A stretch of 64,000 nucleotides of DNA from Pirellulimonas nuda (lineage in GTDB: Bacteria; Planctomycetota; Planctomycetia; Pirellulales; Lacipirellulaceae). The first letter of the stretch is position 1. Every line of letters begins with the position of its first letter. The notes under the pieces are model-generated. The model had not been told where the DNA came from. It searched no databases and saw only the letters and a list, made by a program, of their open reading frames with translations. The translations under genes were made by a program, and so were the position numbers. Of the stretch, positions 10,194-56,398 are shown piece after piece. The stretch is from the NCBI RefSeq assembly GCF_007750855.1, contig NZ_CP036291.1, forward strand, positions 6,298,905 through 6,362,904, written 5' to 3'.

Positions 10194-10236
10194 CGTGCGA
10201 ACGCGCCAAGCAGCCCGCCTCAGGTCTAGAAGGATG

Positions 10237-10431
10237 GCCACGAAAAGGCACAAAAAGCACAAGGAAGAACGTGTGCCCACGAATTGAACGAATCCCGCGA
10301 ATGCACTTTGGGAACGTGGAGTAGTTCGCCGTCCCGACCCACTATCTGCATCGCAATTCGCGTCGATTCGATCGATTCGTGGGCAACCTTTCGTCCGTCC
10401 GTTTTTGTGCTTCTTTGTGCCTTTTCGTGGC
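10237..10431. repeat. Long inverted repeat, GCCACGAAAAGGCAC family, with a second palindrome inside
   Basis: Outer arms: GCCACGAAAAGGCACAAAAA at 10238 and its near-complement ending at 10431. Inside is a different inverted repeat (10274-10384) with arms GCCCACGAATTGAACGAATC and its complement around GATTCGATCGATTCGTGGGC. Related outer arms occur at 48361-48507, 56283-56391 and (half) 8353-8388. The element fills the first part of the 619-bp gap 10194-10812. Confidence 0.85.
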
Positions 10432-10507
10432 AATCGTATCTGCCACTTCCGCGTTCCGCCGGGCCAATTTTCGACGCAAGTCACCCGTCGCCCGGGCTGT
10501 TTGCGGC

Positions 10508-11283: not shown

Positions 11284-11300
11284 CGAAGCCTTCGGCTTTT

Positions 11301-11432
11301 GGCTGTCAGCGGTCAGCGGTCAGCTCTTTCCTACTCGCCCTGGTCCCAGGCTGCGGCCAGTTTACTCGCAACCGCCTGGTCCACGACTGCATCGCAAAAA
11401 GCTGAATGCTGACCGCTGAAAGCTGACAGCTA
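11301..11432. repeat. Long inverted repeat, GCTGTCAGCGGTCAGC family
   Basis: Left arm GGCTGTCAGCGGTCAGCGGT at 11301 and right arm containing GCTGACCGCTGAAAGCTGAC ending near 11432. It occupies the whole gap between the convergent CBS and NtrC-type genes. Confidence 0.8.
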
Positions 11433-11436
11433 AACG

Positions 11437-12813
11437 CTAAACTCCCACCTGCTCGTCCAGCCCCAGCCGCTTCATCTTCTTATAAAGCGTGGTGCGGTTG
11501 ATGCCGAGTTGGTCGGCGGTGGCGTTGCGGTTCCAGCCGTTGCCTTCGAGCACGTCGCGGATGATCTGCCGCTCCGGACCCTCCAGGGCTTCCTTGAGCG
11601 TGCGTCCCAGGCCGCTCCCCGCGGCCGGGTAGGCGCCCCCGGCGCGGAGCTCGGTCGGCAGGTCGGCGGGGGTGATCTCGGGGCCCTTGCCCAGCAGCAC
11701 GGCCCGCTCAACCACGTTCTGCAGCTCGCGGACGTTGCCGGGCCAGTGGTAGTGCTGCATCGCCGCGATGGCCTCGTCGGAGAAGCCGGTGGTCTTGCGC
11801 CCCGACTCCTCCACCGCTTCGTGCAGGAACCGCAGGGCGAGCAGCGGGATGTCGCTCGGGCGGCCGCGCAGCGGGGGCATCTCGATGTTGATCACGTTGA
11901 CGCGGTAGTACAGGTCTTGGCGGAAATCGCCCGCGGCGACGCGGGCGGCCAGGTCTTCGTTGGTCGCCAGCACCACGCGCACGTCGACGCGGTGGGTCTG
12001 CGTGCCGCCGACCGGCTCGAAGGCCAGCTCTTGCAGCACCCGCAGCAGCTTCACCTGCAGGGCGGGGGTGGCGGTGCCGATCTCGTCCAAGAAGATCGTG
12101 CCGCCGTCGGCCTGCAGGAACTTGCCCATCTTGTTCCCGGTGGCGCCGGTGAACGCGCCGGCGACGTGGCCGAACAGCTCGCTCTCGAGCAGCGTCTCGG
12201 GGAGGGCGCCGCAGGCGACCTCCACAAACGGCCCCTTCGCGCGGTCGCTGCGGCTGTGGACGGCGCGGGCGATCAGGCTCTTGCCGGTGCCGCTCTCGCC
12301 GGTCACCAGCACGGTGGCGCGGGTGTCTGCGATGCTCTCGACCAGGTCGAACACGCGGAGCATCCGCGGGTCCTGGCCGATGATGTGCCCCATGCCGTGC
12401 TTGCGGTCCAGCTCTGCCTTGAGCTTGGAGTTCTCGTCGATCACGCCGCGTTGGGTGAGGGCCCGCTCGATGGCCATCAGCAGTTCGTCGTCGATCAGCG
12501 GCTTGGTGAGGTAGTCGAACGCCCCCGCGCGGATCGCCTCAACCGCCTCGTCGGGCGAGCCGTAGCCGGTCATCAGCAGCGCCTGCATGGCGGGCCAGCT
12601 ACGCTGGGCGTGCTCCAGCAGGTCGAAGCCGTCGCCGTCCTGCAGGCGGATGTCGCACACCATCAGGTCGAACGGGCGGCGTTGCAGCCGGTCCGTGGCT
12701 TCGGCCATGCCGGCGGCTTCCTCGACCTCGAGCCCCTGGTCGCGCAGCCAGTCGGCCATCGACTCGAGGACGTGCGGGTCGTCGTCAACTAGTAGCAGTC
12801 GGCCGGCGGGCAT
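11437..12813 (-). CDS. NtrC-family sigma-54-dependent response regulator
   Basis: A 458-residue transcription activator counted from ATG 12813. The receiver domain (residues 1-120) starts LLLVDDDPH and has the phospho-acceptor Asp54 in VCDIRL. The central AAA+ domain has Walker A GESGTGKS, the sigma-54 contact loop GAFTGA and a DEIG Walker B. The C-terminal Fis-type helix-turn-helix ends LGINRTTLYKKMKRLGL. It activates RNA polymerase carrying RpoN, whose gene is also in this window at 58821. No sensor kinase is adjacent, so its signal is unknown. A longer start at 12858 is possible. Confidence 0.93.
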   Translation of the reverse strand: MPAGRLLLVDDDPHVLESMADWLRDQGLEVEEAAGMAEATDRLQRRPFDLMVCDIRLQDGDGFDLLEHAQRSWPAMQALLMTGYGSPDEAVEAIRAGAFDYLTKPLIDDELLMAIERALTQRGVIDENSKLKAELDRKHGMGHIIGQDPRMLRVFDLVESIADTRATVLVTGESGTGKSLIARAVHSRSDRAKGPFVEVACGALPETLLESELFGHVAGAFTGATGNKMGKFLQADGGTIFLDEIGTATPALQVKLLRVLQELAFEPVGGTQTHRVDVRVVLATNEDLAARVAAGDFRQDLYYRVNVINIEMPPLRGRPSDIPLLALRFLHEAVEESGRKTTGFSDEAIAAMQHYHWPGNVRELQNVVERAVLLGKGPEITPADLPTELRAGGAYPAAGSGLGRTLKEALEGPERQIIRDVLEGNGWNRNATADQLGINRTTLYKKMKRLGLDEQVGV

Positions 12814-12952: not shown

Positions 12953-13123
12953 GAACCACGAAGGGCACGAAGAAGCACGTTGAACGGAAGGACGGATTGC
13001 AAATTGCAAATTAGTCATTGCAAATTGCAAATTGGCCTGTCGGATCGCCTGCGCGTCAATTTGCAATTTGCAATTCTTCTTTCCCCTTCCTTCCCGTCGT
13101 GCGTCTTCGTGCCCTTCGTGGTT
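12953..13123. repeat. Long inverted repeat, GAACCACGAAGGGCAC family, with nested palindrome
   Basis: Outer arms GAACCACGAAGGGCACGAAG (12953) and CTTCGTGCCCTTCGTGGTT (ending 13123). Inside is a second palindrome, ATTGCAAATTGCAAATT against AATTTGCAATTTGCAAT, at 12996-13075. The right end overlaps the stop codon (complement of 13122-13124) of the PLP-enzyme gene. The element takes up most of the 308-bp gap 12814-13121. Confidence 0.88.
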
Positions 13124-26256: not shown

Positions 26257-29782
<3,526 letters not shown>

Positions 29783-37924: not shown

Positions 37925-38008
37925 GGCAGTAAGCCTAAGTCTCGCTTGAAACATCGAATGATGAAAGAGCGCTGCGCCATGGTTTGATTATCCATCGTGC
38001 GCAAATAT

Positions 38009-38125
38009 GGAGCCGGAAGCGTCAGCGCCCGGAGGTTTTTGCGTACGTGGGACTCTCCGGGAGCGGAGGCGCCTCTAGGTGAGCGCGTGCTCGGAGACCT
38101 CCGGGCGCTAACGCTTCCGGCTCCA
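38009..38125. repeat. REP pair upstream of the RAYT
   Basis: GGAGCCGGAAGCGTCAGCGCC...GGAGGTT at 38009 and its inverted copy CCTCCGGGCGCTAACGCTTC..CGGCTCC ending 38125. The two units face each other around a 55-bp spacer. Confidence 0.9.
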
Positions 38126-38179: not shown

Positions 38180-38734
38180 ATGCACTTCATGATCACGAGC
38201 ACGACGTACGGCGCTTGGCTCCCAGGCGACCCGCGCGGGTCCGTTACCTCGGTCCGCGACCGGCGTGAAGGGGAAGCCACTTCTAGTCACCGACTCGAGC
38301 ACTCGACCTACGGGGAACCCTGGGAGCCCCAAATGATCGGCCTGCATCACAGCGCCGCGCAAGCTATGAAGGGCGATCCTGTTCGGCTTTCCAGGGCTCA
38401 AGCACAGGTCGTTGTGCTGCAGCTCCGCGAGACGGCCAGCTACCGTGGCTGGGCGCTGCTGGCGGTGGCGGTCATGGCGAATCATTTCCACGTTGTGATG
38501 AGCGCAAGCAACGACTCGGATCCGCAAAAGATTCTCAACGACCTGAAGGCCTACACGTCGCGGGCGCTCAATCGCAAGTTCGGCAAACCCGCGTCGGCTC
38601 GCTGGTGGACAAGCGGCGGATCAAAGCGCCGGCTGTTCAATAATGCTGCGATTGGTGGCGCAATCCACTACGTGAGATTCAAACAGTTCAATCCGCTAAT
38701 AGTATGGCCGCCTCTCGAAGAACCGCAGCTGTGA
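38180..38734 (+). CDS. REP-associated tyrosine transposase (RAYT, Y1/HUH)
   Basis: A 184-residue single-strand DNA transposase-like enzyme. The HUH motif is at residues 102-104 (ANHFHVVM), and the catalytic tyrosine is probably Tyr125 in DLKAYTSRALN. MHFMITSTTYGAWLPGDPRG is the usual RAYT N-terminus. The gene is flanked on both sides by inverted pairs of the same REP unit (38009-38125 and 38743-38812), the classic RAYT/REP arrangement. Members cut and join REP hairpins and are thought to spread them. All key residues are intact, so it may be active. Confidence 0.92.
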   Translation: MHFMITSTTYGAWLPGDPRGSVTSVRDRREGEATSSHRLEHSTYGEPWEPQMIGLHHSAAQAMKGDPVRLSRAQAQVVVLQLRETASYRGWALLAVAVMANHFHVVMSASNDSDPQKILNDLKAYTSRALNRKFGKPASARWWTSGGSKRRLFNNAAIGGAIHYVRFKQFNPLIVWPPLEEPQL

Positions 38735-38742
38735 TCCACTCT

Positions 38743-38812
38743 GGAGCCGGAAGCGTAGGCGCCCGGAGTGTTCGCGAGCAACAACCTCCGGGCGCTGACG
38801 CTTCCGGCTCCA
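38743..38812. repeat. REP pair downstream of the RAYT
   Basis: GGAGCCGGAAGCGTAGGCGCC at 38743 and inverted AACCTCCGGGCGCTGACGCT..CCGGCTCC ending 38812, with a spacer of about 16 bp. Same unit as at 38009-38125. Confidence 0.9.
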
Positions 38813-38836
38813 GGCTGCTTTATGGAGCGGTGAGGC

Positions 38837-39862
38837 CTATTCCACCACCCACGTCTCGCCCGAGTTGAACAACGCGTCCAGGTCTCCCGCCCCTTGGCGC
38901 TTCACCGCCTCGGCGACCTGGTCGTTGATCAGCACGTCGTACCGCGGCGCGTCGACGCTGCGGAACACGCCGATGGGCTCTGGGAAGCCGTCTTCGTAGC
39001 GGAGGCGGCTCAGCAGGTAGGCGAGGCTCGGCTCCGGGGCCGCCTCGTCGTGGAACAGCAGGTCGTCTTCGCTGATCCCCTTGCCCAGCTCTACCACCTC
39101 GGGGGTGAGTCCGTTCAGGCGGATCCCCTTGTCGCGGTTGGCGCCGAAGATCAGCGGCTTGCCGTGCTCTAGCTCGAGCGTGGTCTCGGCCTTCAGCTTG
39201 CGGTCCTTGGCGTAGTCCCAGGCGCCGTCGTTGAAGACGTTGCAGTTCTGGTAGACCTCAACAAACGACGAGCCCTGGTGGCGGGCGGCGCGTTCGAGCG
39301 TGGCGCCCAGGTGCTTGATGTTGGTGTCGATGCTGCGGGCCACAAAGGTGGCCTCGGCGCCGATGACAATCGACAACGGGTGCAACGGGTTGTCGATGGC
39401 GCCCATCGGCGTGCTCTTGGTCCGCTGCCCCAGCGGCGACGTGGGGGAGTACTGCCCCTTGGTCAGCCCGTAGATGCGGTTGTTGAACAGGACGATGTTG
39501 AGGTCCATGTTCCGGCGGATGGCGTGCATCAAGTGGTTGCCGCCGATGGACAGGCCGTCGCCGTCGCCGGTGATGACCCACACGTGCAGGTCGGGCCGGG
39601 CGCTCTTGAGCCCCGTCGCCACGGCCGGCGCGCGGCCGTGGATAGAGTGGATGCCGTACGTGTTCATGTAGTACGGGAACCGGCTGCTGCAGCCGATGCC
39701 CGAGACGAACACCGTCTTCTCGCGCGGGATCCCCAGCCCGGGCAGGATCTTCTTCATCTGCGCCAGGATGGAGTAGTCGCCGCAACCGGGGCACCAGCGG
39801 ATGTCTTGATCGCTGGCGAAGTCTTGGGGGGTGAGGACGGGGAGGTCGAGGGAGGTGGTCAT
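38837..39862 (-). CDS. korB: 2-oxoacid:ferredoxin oxidoreductase, beta subunit
   Basis: A 341-residue TPP-binding subunit. CPGCGD (Cys24, Cys27) opens the protein, GIGCSSR follows, and ITGDGDGLSIGGNHLMHAIR with FNNRIYGLTKGQ is the thiamine diphosphate / Mg motif (GDG to NN). With the fused alpha subunit it oxidises 2-oxoglutarate or a related oxoacid to acyl-CoA while reducing ferredoxin. The exact oxoacid is not readable; 2-oxoglutarate is the most common partner for this fused-alpha type. The ATG is 5 bp from the arm of the repeat element that separates it from the alpha gene. Confidence 0.9.
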   Translation of the reverse strand: MTTSLDLPVLTPQDFASDQDIRWCPGCGDYSILAQMKKILPGLGIPREKTVFVSGIGCSSRFPYYMNTYGIHSIHGRAPAVATGLKSARPDLHVWVITGDGDGLSIGGNHLMHAIRRNMDLNIVLFNNRIYGLTKGQYSPTSPLGQRTKSTPMGAIDNPLHPLSIVIGAEATFVARSIDTNIKHLGATLERAARHQGSSFVEVYQNCNVFNDGAWDYAKDRKLKAETTLELEHGKPLIFGANRDKGIRLNGLTPEVVELGKGISEDDLLFHDEAAPEPSLAYLLSRLRYEDGFPEPIGVFRSVDAPRYDVLINDQVAEAVKRQGAGDLDALFNSGETWVVE

Positions 39863-39866
39863 GTGG

Positions 39867-40367
39867 GAGATGATAGAGGTTAGATGATAGATGATAGATG
39901 ATAGGACGGACGACGCTTCGCGATGCGCTGGCGCTAAATAGGAGGCAGCTTGGCGCGCAGTGACTTTTGAAGTCCGCGGAGCATTCTTCCTTCTTCTTCG
40001 ATCATTTCGAGGATGCGGCTGGGTTGACTGGGTTCGAGGTAGCGGAGGCGTAGGGCGAGTTGGATGAAGGTTTCGAGTTCGCTAAGCGACCCGAACGCAA
40101 TGGAGAGGTGCCGGAGGTAATCTTTGATCGAGTCGCGTCCGTTCCCTTCGGCGATATTAGCCGGGATCGAACTAGCGGCGCGGCGCATCTGGTTGGTCAG
40201 CGAGAAACGATCGTCGGAAGGAAACCCTGCGGTGAGCACGTAAGTCTCTTCTGCAATATCCATCCCCAACTGCCACACTTTAAGGTCGTGGTGGCTCCGA
40301 ATATCACTCCCCATCTAAGCGAGCTCCCAACCGTCCCTATCATCTAACCTCTATCCTCTATCATCTC
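39867..40367. mobile_element. Palindrome-flanked cassette carrying the four-helix-bundle gene
   Basis: Left arm 39867-39909 (GAGATGATAGAGGTTAGATG, then ATGATAG repeats and GGACGG) and right arm 40331-40367, whose complement reads GAGATGATAGAGGATAGAGG..TTAGATGATAGGGACGG. The arms enclose about 420 bp with one gene (39934-40314). The right arm encodes the last residues and stop of KorA (EMIEDRG-stop). The cassette interrupts the korA-korB pair. Confidence 0.75.
39934..40314 (-). CDS. Four-helix-bundle protein (23S rRNA intervening-sequence protein family)
   Basis: A 126-residue all-helical protein of the S23 / IVP four-helix-bundle family: HHDLKVWQLGMDIAEETY, then FSLTNQMRRAASSIPANIAEG (the most diagnostic part), then YLRHLSIAFGSLSELET. 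The family is known from 23S rRNA intervening sequences and as the accessory protein (Avd) of diversity-generating retroelements. No reverse transcriptase or rRNA is nearby here. The gene lies between inverted repeat arms and between korA and korB. Its role is not established; a role in spreading the flanking palindrome is my inference. Confidence 0.9.
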   Translation of the reverse strand: MGSDIRSHHDLKVWQLGMDIAEETYVLTAGFPSDDRFSLTNQMRRAASSIPANIAEGNGRDSIKDYLRHLSIAFGSLSELETFIQLALRLRYLEPSQPSRILEMIEEEGRMLRGLQKSLRAKLPPI

Positions 40368-42248
40368 AACAATCTTCTGATGCACTTCCGCCACACTAAA
40401 CGGCTTGCCCTGCACCTTGTTGAGTCCCACGGCATCGACCAAGAACTGCGAGCGGATCAGCATCCGCAACTGGCCGCAGTTCAGCTCGGGGATCAGCACT
40501 TGCTTGAAGTTGCCGAGGATCTCGCCCAGGTTGCGCGGGAAAGGGTTCAGGTAACGCAGGTGGGCGTGCGTGACGCTCAGGCCGGCTTTCTGGGCGCGGT
40601 GTACGGCGGTCGCGCACGAGCCGTAGGGGCCGCCCCAGCTCAAGACCAATAGGTCGCCGCTGGAAGGACCGTCCAGCTCTTGCAAGGGGATGTGGTTCGC
40701 GATGCCCGCCACCTTGGCGGCCCGCGTGTTGGTCATGTGCTGGTGGTTCTCGGGGTCGTAGCTGACGTTGCCGGTGACGTCCTGCTTCTCCAGCCCGCCG
40801 ATGCGGTGCTGCAGGCCGACCGTTCCTGGCAGCGCCCACGGGCGGGCCAGCTTGTCGTTGCGTTTGTAGGGGAGGAACGTTTCACCCCCCGCACCGTTGG
40901 CCCCTTCACCGTGAGCGCCGTCACCGTTCGTGGGGGCTATCGGCCCGGGGTGCTGGATGTCGATCCGCGGCAAGTCGGCCGCCTTGGGCACTCGCCACGG
41001 CTCGGAGCCGTTGGCGATGTAGCCGTCGCTGAGGAAGAAGACCGGCGTCATGAACGTGGTGGCGATCCGCCACGCCTCTTGCACCGCGTAGAAGCAGTCG
41101 GCCGGGCCGCTGGCCGCGACGATCGGCATCGGGCACTCGCCGTTGCGGCCGAACATCGCCTGCAGCAGGTCGCTCTGCTCCGTCTTGGTGGGGAGCCCCG
41201 TGCTGGGGCCGCCGCGCTGAATGTTCAGCACCAGCATCGGCAGCTCGGTCATCACGGCCAGCCCGAGCGCTTCGGCCTTGAGCGCGATGCCGGGGCCGCT
41301 AGACGACGTGACGGCCATCTCGCCGCCGAACGCCGCGCCGATCGTCGCGGTGACCGCGGCGATCTCGTCCTCGGCCTGGAACGTGAGCACGTCGAAGTTC
41401 TTGTGCCTAGCCAGCTCGTGCAGCACGTCGCTGGCCGGGGTGATCGGGTAGGCGCCAAAGAACAGCCGCTTGCCGGACACCTTGGCGGCCGCGATCAGCC
41501 CCCACGCCAGGGCGGTGTTGCCCATGATGCTGTAGTAGGTGCCGGGCTCCAGCACCGCCTTGGGGACGTGGTACTGGGTGTTGATCGCCTCGACGGTTTC
41601 GCCGTAGTTGAAGCCCGCCTTGAGGGCGCGTTCGTTGGCCTGGGCCACCTCGGGCCGCTTGCCGAACTTCTCTTCGATGAACCGCAGCGTCGGCTCCAGC
41701 GAGCGGTCGTACAGCCAGAACACCAGCCCCATGGCGAAGAAGTTCCGGCAGCGGTCGGCTTCTTTCTGGCTGAGCCCCAGGCCCTCGACCGCGGTGCGGG
41801 TGATCTTGGTGATGTCGATGCTGTGCAGCTTGTACTTCTGGTCCAGGCTGCCATCTTCCAGCGGGTTGGTCGCGTAGCCGGCCTGTTCGAGGCCGCGCTT
41901 GTCGAAGGAGCTGGAGTCGCAGATCAGCACGCCGGCGTCGCGGAGGTCGCCGATGTTGGTGGTCAGCGCCGCCGGGTTCATCGCCACCAGGGCGTCGACC
42001 GTGTCGCCCGGCGTGAAGATCTCGGTGCTGGAGAAGTGGACCTGGAAGCCCGACACGCCCGCCTTGGTGCCGCGCGGGGCGCGGATCTCGGCCGGGAAGT
42101 CGGGGAAGGTGGCGACGTCGTTGCCCGCCAGCGCGCTGGTGGTGGTGAACTGCGTGCCGGCCAACTGCATGCCGTCGCCGGAGTCGCCGCAGAAGCGGAC
42201 AGTGGCGTCAACGAGTTCCTGAACCTGCTTTAATTCTGCGGTCGACAT
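40344..42248 (-). CDS. korA: 2-oxoacid:ferredoxin oxidoreductase, fused gamma-alpha subunit
   Basis: A 634-residue protein. The N-terminal gamma-type domain covers about residues 12-200 (FCGDSGDGMQLAGTQF, PAEIRAPRGTKAGVSGF). The alpha pyrimidine-binding domain starts about residue 250 (YPITPASDVLHEL, FQAEDEIAAVTATIGAAFGG, TSSSGPGIALKAEALGLA, QRGGPSTGLPTKTEQSDLL). Partner of KorB; the pair feeds low-potential electrons to ferredoxin in a reductive or oxidative TCA step. The last codons (MIEDRG-stop) lie within the repeat arm at 40331-40367, so the C-terminus may have been replaced by insertion. Confidence 0.92.
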   Translation of the reverse strand: MSTAELKQVQELVDATVRFCGDSGDGMQLAGTQFTTTSALAGNDVATFPDFPAEIRAPRGTKAGVSGFQVHFSSTEIFTPGDTVDALVAMNPAALTTNIGDLRDAGVLICDSSSFDKRGLEQAGYATNPLEDGSLDQKYKLHSIDITKITRTAVEGLGLSQKEADRCRNFFAMGLVFWLYDRSLEPTLRFIEEKFGKRPEVAQANERALKAGFNYGETVEAINTQYHVPKAVLEPGTYYSIMGNTALAWGLIAAAKVSGKRLFFGAYPITPASDVLHELARHKNFDVLTFQAEDEIAAVTATIGAAFGGEMAVTSSSGPGIALKAEALGLAVMTELPMLVLNIQRGGPSTGLPTKTEQSDLLQAMFGRNGECPMPIVAASGPADCFYAVQEAWRIATTFMTPVFFLSDGYIANGSEPWRVPKAADLPRIDIQHPGPIAPTNGDGAHGEGANGAGGETFLPYKRNDKLARPWALPGTVGLQHRIGGLEKQDVTGNVSYDPENHQHMTNTRAAKVAGIANHIPLQELDGPSSGDLLVLSWGGPYGSCATAVHRAQKAGLSVTHAHLRYLNPFPRNLGEILGNFKQVLIPELNCGQLRMLIRSQFLVDAVGLNKVQGKPFSVAEVHQKIVEMIEDRG

Positions 42249-46745: not shown

Positions 46746-48362
46746 ATGGCGTTGCGTATTGCTCTACTGGCGGCAGCGATCGGGGCCGCCACGGCGGCGC
46801 AGTCGGCGCCTCAGCCCGGGGCCGCGGCTGGGCGGATCGATCAGCTCCTGATGGCCGACACCGGCGCCAGCGCCGGTGAGCTGGCCCCGCGGGCCGACGA
46901 CGCGACCTACCTCCGCCGGGTGTGGCTAGACATCGTGGGAGACATCCCCACGCCGGAGCACGTGACCGCCTTCGTGCTCGACCCCGCCCCCGACAAGCGG
47001 GCCCGTGTGGTCCGCGAGCTGCTCGCCACGCCGCAGTACGGCCAAAACTGGGCCCGCTACTGGCGCGACGTGATCCTCAGCCGCAAGCTGGAAGACCGCG
47101 CCGCGATCGTCTCGGGCCCGGTGGTCGAGAAGCTCACGGCCGAGCTGAACGCAAACCGCCCCTGGGACGAGGTAGCCAGCGAGTTCATCACCGCTACCGG
47201 CGACGTCCGCGAGGATGGCGCCACCGCCATCCTGATGGCCCAAGACGGCCGCACCGAAGAGACGACCGCCGAGGTGGCCCGCATCTTCCTCGGCATCCAG
47301 ATCCAGTGCGCCCAGTGCCACGACCACCCGTGGGACCAGTGGAAGCGCGAGCAGTTCCACGAGCTGGCGGCCTTCTTCCCGCGCGTCAGCGTGCGGCCTC
47401 TGCAGACCCCCACCAAGCGGACCTTCGCGGTGGTGGTGAGCGACGCCCCCGAGCGGCGTTTCCAGAAGAAGCCGGTTGATGGCAACCGCCCGACGCCCGA
47501 GCACTACATGCCGGACCTCGACGCCCCGGACCAGCCCGGCACGCGGATGCAGCCGCGGTTCTTCCTCACCAGCGCCGAGCTGCCCTACGGCACGGCCGAC
47601 GCCGACCGCCGCGGCCAGCTCGCGGATTGGCTCACCGATTCACCGTGGTTCGCTACGGCGCTGGTGAACCGGGTGTGGTCTGAACTAGTCGGCGAGGGCT
47701 TCTACGAGCCGATCGACGACATCGGCCCCGACCGCGACACCACCGCCCCCGAGACGGTGGCGCTGCTTTCCAACCAGTTTGCGGACAGCGGGTACGACCT
47801 GAAGTGGCTGATGGAAACCATCTGCGCCACCCAGGCCTACCAACGCGAGACCCGCCCACGCCGCGGGCCGGACGCCACGCCGTTCACCGCCAGCGTGGCC
47901 CAGCGCCTGCGCGGCGACCAGCTCTACAACGCGATCCTCACGGCGCTGGAGATCAACGACTCGGCGCGCACGCCGCTGGCGGGCCGCGGCGGGGGGCAGG
48001 GCTACGGCGGCCGGGGGACGCCGCGCGACGCGTTCAACGCGGCGTTCGGCTACGACCCCAGCATCCAACGCGAGGCGGTCTCGGCCAGCATCCCGCAGAC
48101 GCTGGCGATGATGAACACGTCGAAGATCAACCTGGCGATTAGCGCCAACCGCACGACGATGCTCGGCCGGCTGCTGGCCGACACGCCCGACAACCACGAC
48201 CTGGTGGACGACCTCTACCTCCGCACGCTCTGCCGCACGCCGACCCAGGCCGAGAGCGCAGCGGGGCTGGCGTACATGAAGCAAGTAAAAGACCGGCGCG
48301 AGGGGGCGGAAGACTTGTTGTGGGCGCTGCTGAACTCGGCCGAGTTCGTGCACCGCCGATAG
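46746..48362 (+). CDS. DUF1549/DUF1553 planctomycete protein
   Basis: A 538-residue exported protein with a signal peptide (residues 1-18, cut near AQSAP). DUF1549 covers about residues 35-240 (RVWLDIVGDIPTPEHV, NWARYWRDVILSR, QIQCAQCHDHPWDQWKREQFHELAAFF). DUF1553 covers about 270-530 (WFATALVNRVWSELVGEGFYEPIDDIGP, YDLKWLMETICATQAYQRE). The CAQCHDHPWDQW part has a C-x-x-C-H pattern, yet no full N-terminal cytochrome domain is present. Such proteins pair with DUF1501 proteins in planctomycetes, and their role is not established. ATG 46746 begins the signal peptide. The TAG stop overlaps the start of a palindromic repeat. Confidence 0.88.
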   Translation: MALRIALLAAAIGAATAAQSAPQPGAAAGRIDQLLMADTGASAGELAPRADDATYLRRVWLDIVGDIPTPEHVTAFVLDPAPDKRARVVRELLATPQYGQNWARYWRDVILSRKLEDRAAIVSGPVVEKLTAELNANRPWDEVASEFITATGDVREDGATAILMAQDGRTEETTAEVARIFLGIQIQCAQCHDHPWDQWKREQFHELAAFFPRVSVRPLQTPTKRTFAVVVSDAPERRFQKKPVDGNRPTPEHYMPDLDAPDQPGTRMQPRFFLTSAELPYGTADADRRGQLADWLTDSPWFATALVNRVWSELVGEGFYEPIDDIGPDRDTTAPETVALLSNQFADSGYDLKWLMETICATQAYQRETRPRRGPDATPFTASVAQRLRGDQLYNAILTALEINDSARTPLAGRGGGQGYGGRGTPRDAFNAAFGYDPSIQREAVSASIPQTLAMMNTSKINLAISANRTTMLGRLLADTPDNHDLVDDLYLRTLCRTPTQAESAAGLAYMKQVKDRREGAEDLLWALLNSAEFVHRR

Positions 48363-48507
48363 CCACAAAAAGGCACGAAAAGGCACAAGAACGAAGGAGG
48401 TGCAATTGCGCCTTCGGACTATGGCGCCCTACTCGTAGCGTCTGTCTTGAGCAGCGGGGTCTCTAGTTACCGTTCGTCTTTGTGCTTTTTCGTGCCTTTT
48501 TGTGGCA
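48361..48507. repeat. Long inverted repeat, GCCACAAAAAGGCACGAAAA family
   Basis: Left arm AGCCACAAAAAGGCACGAAA, right arm TTTTTCGTGCCTTTTTGTGG. It begins on the last bases of the DUF1549 stop codon (TAG 48360-48362). It occupies the gap before the DUF1501 gene. Confidence 0.87.
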
Positions 48508-48547
48508 ATCGTCGTCTTGAGGCGGGTTTTACCACTAGGTGATCGTC

Positions 48548-54791: not shown

Positions 54792-54871
54792 TGAACCACG
54801 AAGGGCACGAAGAAACACGAAGGAAGCATGAAATGACCTTCCTTCGTGCTCATTCGTGCCCTTCGTGGTTA
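54792..54871. repeat. Inverted repeat, GAACCACGAAGGGCAC family
   Basis: Left arm GAACCACGAAGGGCACGAAG, right arm CATTCGTGCCCTTCGTGGTT, with a small spacer around CTTCCTTCG. It separates the rhodanese gene from the reductase gene within one minus-strand group. Confidence 0.9.
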
Positions 54872-56152: not shown

Positions 56153-56268
56153 ACGGCGCCCGGTGGGGGGCCCCTGCAATGGGGGCCTTACGAACCTGGT
56201 CAGGGTGGAAACGCAGCAGCCATAAGTTTGCGTCTCTTTGTGTGGGGGTCCCCTACCGGCCGCCGTCG
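56153..56268 (+). ncRNA. ffs: Signal recognition particle RNA (small bacterial type)
   Basis: A roughly 115-nt hairpin RNA. The conserved apical core reads GGTCAGGGTGGAAACGCAGC AGCC (56199-56222), the SRP RNA Ffh-binding signature. The ends pair: CCGGTGGGGGGCCCC with GGGGTCCCCTACCGG, extended by CGGCG/CGCCG-type pairs. It assembles with Ffh to target membrane proteins. It lies directly before dnaX, the usual bacterial neighbourhood (SRP RNA, dnaX, ebfC). Confidence 0.9.
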
Positions 56269-56282
56269 AACGATCAAACGAT

Positions 56283-56391
56283 AGCCACGAAAAGGCACAA
56301 AAAAGCACAAAGAACGGACGGAGGAAGGCGACACGAATCAGCGCCGGATCGTGCTCTTCCTTTTTGTGTTTTCTTGTGCCTTTTTGTGGCC
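56283..56391. repeat. Long inverted repeat, GCCACGAAAAGGCAC family
   Basis: Left arm AGCCACGAAAAGGCACAAAA, right arm CTTGTGCCTTTTTGTGGC. It ends 8 bp before the dnaX start codon, so it covers the ribosome-binding region. Same family as 10237 and 48361. Confidence 0.87.
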
Positions 56392-56398
56392 ATTCTTC

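Follow-up and report, generated by a model that had tools for sequence, protein, structure and literature searches.

Genes of the 23S rRNA intervening-sequence protein family as content of hairpins with seven-nucleotide arms in protein operons

We describe a class of cassettes in which a gene of the 23S rRNA intervening-sequence protein (IVP) family is enclosed by inverted arrays of 7-nt repeats and inserted in protein operons, and we are close to certain that the class exists as described. What is new is the recognition that IVP genes of many phyla are the cargo of operon-borne hairpins with 7-nt arms, a link that was absent from the open-licence literature that we searched. A large family named for a rare site in 23S rRNA was thus found, in our sample, almost always inside 7-nt-repeat hairpins in ordinary operons. 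The starting point was a 64,000-nt stretch of the Pirellulimonas nuda genome (GCF_007750855.1, contig NZ_CP036291.1, positions 6,298,905 to 6,362,904), hereafter the window, which belongs to a single contig of 6.62 Mb.

In the window, the arms at 39867-39897 and 40337-40367 were 90% complementary over 31 nt around a 439-nt interior and ran inward to GGACGG (39904-39909) and CCGTCC (40331-40336), in agreement with the near-complementary arms of 39867-39909 and 40331-40367 named in the original prediction. Read on the + strand, the left arm consists of tandem 7-nt units (AGATGAT AGAGGTT AGATGAT AGATGAT AG), a regularity that the original prediction had left unmentioned. TAGATGA units were present in both arms, and tandem units of 7 nt are the mark of heptameric repeats (STRR). 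The last korA codons (EMIEDRG) and the korA stop lie within the right arm. The only family matches among the ORFs of the cassette were those of the IVP gene, with 119.9 bits for PF05635 (23S_rRNA_IVP, cut-off 33.8) and 113.4 bits for TIGR02436 (four helix bundle protein, cut-off 24), which bears out the earlier statement that a single S23/IVP-family gene lies between the arms. The neighbours were korA and korB, both on the - strand, and the cassette does split two genes of one enzyme, as had been claimed. The ORF family search found no transposase inside the cassette, of the kind that an insertion sequence or autonomous transposon would carry, and an Rfam scan of the window returned SRP RNA only and no group I or II intron RNA. 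Folded as single-stranded DNA, the cassette had an unremarkable total energy (z -1.0).

Table 1. Coordinates of features in the window, and repeat units of the IVP cassettes of the same genome
Feature	Position in window	Strand	Description
Whole IVP cassette, korA-korB	39867..40367	-	korA-korB spacer, 501 bp; unit TAGATGA
5' arm on gene strand	40331..40367	-	G-rich; 7-nt units TAGATGA/TAGAGGA/TAGAGGT
3' arm on gene strand (CTATCATCTATCATCTATCATCTAACCTCTATCATCTC)	39867..39909	-	C-rich; stops 4 nt short of korB start codon
IVP gene	39934..40314	-	126 aa, four-helix bundle; profile matches and structure model
korA (2-oxoacid:acceptor oxidoreductase alpha), host gene	40344..42248	-	Tail encoded by cassette arm
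korB (beta subunit), host gene	38837..39862	-	Downstream of cassette; family search
Gene-free hairpin	11295..11437	.	Unit AGCGGTC, unit family as in sucC-sucD IVP cassette
Gene-free hairpin	27985..28087	.	Unit GGGGCGA, inner CGCAAGCG; unit and inner motif as in IVP cassette L006
Gene-free hairpin	28936..29058	.	Unit GGGGCGA-like
IVP cassette, sucC-sucD			Unit AGCTTTC
IVP cassette downstream of tsf			Unit GTGAGTG
IVP cassette L006			Unit GGGGCGA, inner motif CGCAAGCG
Broken IVP copy, upstream of apparent rpoC			Unit ATTGCAA
Sixth IVP cassette of the genome			29-nt GC-rich unit

PF05635 genes number six in this genome, and one is interrupted by stop codons. All six were framed by inverted arms of tandem units, the unit being different each time; it was 7 nt long in five cassettes. 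The other IVP proteins of the genome found by sequence search shared no more than 42-46% identity with that of the window, and they are therefore not recent copies of it.

In order to assess the association more widely, we assembled a set of IVP loci from three sources: relatives, a scan of GTDB that gave 80 loci in many phyla and in one archaeon, and seven additional genomes. Since the loci were located via the protein and not via the flanks, the association with arms is not built into the sample. Arms with a score of at least 14 were found at 78% of 105 IVP loci, compared with 2.3% when flanks were mismatched and 0.2% when positions were shifted, and a self-match at lag 7 at 68% of the same loci, against 4% of controls, with peaks at 7, 14 and 21 only; these loci are partly non-independent, some having sites in common, and the first alignment was based on planctomycetes. 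In a larger set of 165 loci from about 15 phyla, inverted arms were present at 134, a 7-nt period at 135 and one or both at 155 (94%). Repetitive flanks were thus found nearly everywhere, rather than plain flanks throughout or arms missing near such genes, and the same gene occurred elsewhere with other arms, both among the six IVP genes of P. nuda and in the set as a whole, as the original prediction had proposed to check. On the gene strand, the 5' arm was G-rich at 128 of the 134 armed loci. The cassette had a median length of 473 nt among 136 relatives, with arms of 31 nt. Among 144 units, 106 were distinct, with a weak shared pattern (NYAGGGR), so that period and polarity are conserved and the sequence is not. 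Taken together, these data support the view that palindrome and IVP gene form a single cassette. We also considered that the units might be selected to give stop codons in all frames and rejected this (59 of 144 units, 50 +/- 4 after permutation).

We then recorded where the cassettes are inserted. By family search, sites included pgk-tpiA, pgk-pyk, pdh-type E1-E2, rmlD-rmlA and cheB-cheA, and by sequence reading carA-carB, accB-accC and nuoC-nuoD. Both flanking genes were co-directional with the IVP gene at 71 loci and both antisense at 7, the neighbour calls being simple and the mixed orientation classes being blurred by spurious antisense ORFs in GC-rich DNA. In four genera the korA cassette began at or within the korA stop, and in the inspected cases the cassette started at the upstream stop codon. 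None of the 238 fetched IVP loci lay near a 23S gene by BLAST against the 23S of this genome; of four conserved rRNA oligos applied to this 23S as a positive control, only two worked, so that the statement rests on the BLAST comparison. The 23S of this genome is a single copy of 2820 nt with no insert. A location inside 23S or on phages was rejected, with none among the 238 loci and no phage match. Plasmids of cyanobacteria also carry IVP genes (38 records, most of them from Nostocales); some of these plasmids are conjugative and may offer a route of transfer. One relative assembled in 700 contigs (G011) gave 20 IVP-like matches, almost all of low score and many of them at the ends of contigs, which may represent a divergent multi-copy subfamily.

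The closest known system is the intervening sequence (IVS) of 23S rRNA in Coxiella and Leptospira, and the comparison made in the original prediction proved apt. The Coxiella IVS is 428 nt long, carries an IVP-family ORF with 7-nt repeats upstream of it and is excised by RNase III (PMC4990558). IVS and cassette have in common the ORF family, a similar length (428 nt and a median of 473 nt), complementary terminal arms of 28-31 bp and tandem 7-nt repeats located 5' of the ORF; the window cassette accordingly shows complementary arms around an IVP ORF. However, the IVS sits in an rRNA gene, whereas the window cassette and the others lie in protein operons, and IVP is described as decaying in Coxiella, whereas the cassette IVP is under strong purifying selection. 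Inserts in the rRNA of CPR bacteria carry an IVP domain too (PMC11270868).

Heptameric repeats are a second point of comparison. They are abundant in Xanthomonas (GGGAATC) and Nostoc (GGGGA(C/T)T), where they frequently form inverted pairs in the spacers of aligned ORFs; the majority of those in Xanthomonas are transcribed (PMC4692102); in Nostoc, 7-nt repeats also make up the P6b stem of the trnL intron (PMC4476775). The tandem 7-nt units, inverted pairs and variable copy number of these simple repeats (STRR) recur in the cassettes (PMC4692102, PMC4476775). These two reports draw no link to IVP, and the terms "S23" and "four helix" do not occur in PMC4692102, whereas at nearly every locus of our set the arrays, with over 100 different units in all, frame an IVP gene.

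The structure model of the window IVP (pLDDT 94.2) superposed on Xcc0516 (2gsc, five chains of four-helix bundles) with 0.8 A rmsd and TMt 0.93-0.96. It also matched Avd of diversity-generating retroelements (DGR), alone and within the DGR ribonucleoprotein (4dwl, 8ube), at lower sequence identity, with TM values of 0.72-0.87. The relation of IVP and Avd has been noted before (PMC10053308). Although Avd and IVP share this fold, the cassette has no reverse transcriptase and no template or variable repeat, and the IVP scored 37.4 bits against the Avd profile, under the cut-off of 80. RVT_1 has two matches in the genome, both away from the window (2.13 and 5.74 Mb), and the locus is not a DGR with Avd.

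The two arms evolve in concert. In 68 of 136 same-site pairs, arms paired within each element and not across elements, from which it follows that both arms change together. Between sister species of Mesorhizobium, the number of units per arm ranged from 3 to 22, left and right counts being partly correlated. This turnover with pairing kept is probably due to slippage in whole 7-nt units together with hairpin-templated correction. Mismatches in the arms showed no excess of G.U over A.C (120 and 127), so there is no RNA-specific pairing signal, and pairing could act at the DNA level; we therefore rejected RNA-specific covariation.

Gain and loss were followed at two sites. At korA-korB, whose alignment in relatives the original prediction had put forward as a check, we compared 30 spacers (the own genome and 29 relatives) and found IVP in four, from four genera (G000, the own genome, G001, G019 and G027, the copy of G019 being broken); the other 26 were bare or held gene-free palindromes with other units. 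The intact IVP proteins of this site were mutual best matches with 60-64% identity, which points to one old insertion with later losses. At nuoC-nuoD of Mesorhizobium, where the proposed search for empty sites was successful, nine species had a plain allele (GACGAATTGAGGCGCCAGA directly followed by ATG) and other species cassette A (unit GTGAATG) or cassette B (unit AGTAGTG). Several alleles had no cassette but still carried the left flank of cassette alleles, GCGAAGCAGT or nearly so, which we read as loss scars, and one scar joins at an ATGG common to the arm and the nuoD start. Empty and filled alleles differed at their edges, with no clean target-site duplication. Since cassettes A and B share their outer right flank, two insertions are no more likely than a single one that was replaced or diverged deeply. 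In one further Mesorhizobium (L322, genome G108), a different small ORF lies upstream of nuoD with a trace of a GCAGTAG repeat and no right arm.

In a tree of 211 IVP proteins, the 12 recurrent insertion sites required 15 label changes, against 61.6 after shuffling, with many forks unresolved in this short protein. The dN/dS of IVP proteins at one site was 0.06-0.13. As IVP lineages follow insertion sites, dN/dS is low and the arms change together, the cassette is best described as a long-lived but losable resident that rarely moves and not as an active transposon. The original prediction of an autonomous mobile palindrome was not supported: lineages cluster by site, the copies of this genome are far apart (42-46%) and the arms enclose no transposase gene. 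We saw no sign of recent transposition, since genes at unrelated sites were at most 84% identical. Two cyanobacteria of different families (L104 and L112) carry IVP genes of 84% DNA identity with GGGAATA/GGGAACA-type arms at unrelated sites, and if any cassette moved fairly recently, this pair is the strongest candidate.

Gene-free hairpins with a loop of at most 160 nt numbered 18 in the window, fewer than the about 25 predicted, and only three of them had 7-nt units (Table 1). The idea that they are cargo-free relatives of the cassette holds for these three, most others being REP-like or built of 10-nt units; that all palindromes of the window are such relatives was rejected, three or more kinds being mixed. 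Over 864 kb of the genome, a sample that takes in the window, we counted 93 hairpins, 12 of them with 7-nt units, the window cassette among these, and the rest with 8- to 10-nt units or GC-rich and REP-like. Nearly all gene-free 7-nt hairpins drew on unit families that also occur in the genome's own IVP cassettes (TAGATGA, GGGGCGA, AGCTTTC/AGCGGTC, GTGATGA and ATTGCAA), and the proposed genome search for arms with and without the gene thus had a positive outcome. Palindrome density did not track the number of IVP genes, with zero in IVP-rich G041, G018 and G013, from small samples of 40-60 kb. A RAYT-like Y1 transposase gene (38180-38734, +) lies beside korB, flanked by REP-like palindromes at 38008-38125 and 38741-38813 (TGGAGCCGGAAGCG..), to which the arms of the IVP cassette are unrelated.

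What the data show directly is the anatomy of the cassettes, their 7-nt period, polarity and sense orientation, their insertion into spacers that are otherwise empty, repeated loss, vertical persistence at a site, purifying selection on the protein, and turnover of both arms together with pairing kept. The best overall explanation is, in our view, that these cassettes of about 470 nt make up a widespread class of elements which corresponds, in protein operons, to the 23S rRNA IVS, a reading to which we give an even chance. That they also work at the RNA level as IVSs do, argued by analogy, we judge slightly less probable than that; since a G.U bias is absent and the DNA fold of the cassette is unremarkable, this mechanism is a best guess and not a result. 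The cassette would be transcribed with its host operon, the arms would pair in the mRNA into a long stem whose loop contains the ORF, and RNase III or a similar nuclease would cut this stem, as happens in 23S IVSs, which are excised without ligation. The IVP would be a pentameric barrel, as is Avd, which associates with RNA, and may bind its own 7-nt-repeat hairpin and stabilise it, and on rare occasions may aid its spread. A role of IVP itself in promoting the spread of the cassette is a tentative proposal, and we lean against it. A shade more tentative still is the broadest formulation, in which IVP and inverted 7-nt arrays would be an unrecognised class of nucleic-acid-protein elements across bacteria and at least one archaeon, the IVP reading the 7-nt periodicity and not a fixed sequence, keeping the hairpin alive as its letters drift and mobilising both cargo-bearing and gene-free hairpins, with 23S IVSs and heptameric STRRs as members. 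The association joins two puzzles, the role of IVP and the abundance of heptameric repeats in Xanthomonas, cyanobacteria and others, and offers a direct test of both, namely binding of IVP to hairpins of 7-nt period and cutting of the operon mRNA at that place.

Four other explanations were weighed. The purifying selection on IVP, the persistence of the cassette at one site across genera and the position of sites between subunit genes or metabolic partners (sucC-sucD, tsf, pgk-tpiA, pgk-pyk, pdh E1-E2-type, rmlD-rmlA) would suit a regulatory module useful to the host, in which hairpin and IVP tune the ratio of the flanking cistrons (korA/korB, sucC/sucD, carA/carB, nuoC/nuoD) and are kept for that purpose; but a module of this kind is missing from 26 of 30 korA-korB spacers and cleanly and frequently lost within one genus, Mesorhizobium, and we hold it to be rather unlikely. 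It is improbable that the cassettes spread in trans as retroelements, with an Avd-related IVP recruiting a host reverse transcriptase and the hairpin RNA being copied into new operons: the fold shared with Avd of the DGR ribonucleoprotein and the sense orientation within operons fit, but IVP-rich genomes G002, G005, G043, G053 and G055 have no RVT_1 match at all, and the window IVP falls under the Avd cut-off.

One could also regard IVP as a passenger that merely sits among 7-nt simple repeats, some of them G-quadruplex-forming, that are common between genes. Such repeats are indeed abundant in Xanthomonas and Nostoc (PMC4692102), and gene-free 7-nt hairpins do occur in this genome, but the association extends to 94% of IVP loci in many phyla, even where the sampled sequence had no such hairpins (G041, G018, G013), and GGG is present in only 53 of 139 units (38%), on which count we also rejected the G-quadruplex as a general rule; we consider the passenger reading very improbable. 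Movement of the hairpins, with or without IVP, by REP-associated tyrosine transposases is what we credit least. REP and REPIN elements with RAYT are likewise short intergenic palindromes, some of them cargo-free, this genome has eight RAYT matches and the RAYT-like gene among REP-like palindromes is near the cassette, but the cassette differs in its 7-nt tandem arms, to which REP arms (TGGAGCCGGAAGCG..) are unrelated, and in a gene of another family; moreover, G041 has four IVP genes and zero RAYT matches, and G048 eight RAYT matches and zero IVP. Neither RAYT nor reverse transcriptase was supported as an obligatory partner, IVP genomes without RAYT or RVT_1 matches being present in the sample. 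The preferred reading remains that of a protein-operon counterpart of the IVS.

A separate family of palindromes with units of about 10 nt (CCACGAAAAGGCACAAA) occurs in the window at 10233-10435, 12954-13123, 48354-48514, 54794-54870 and 56281-56393. Similar arms recur elsewhere in the genome (L347, L377), never around an IVP gene. The last of these palindromes lies 22 nt behind a bacterial small SRP RNA (Rfam RF00169) at 56163-56259.
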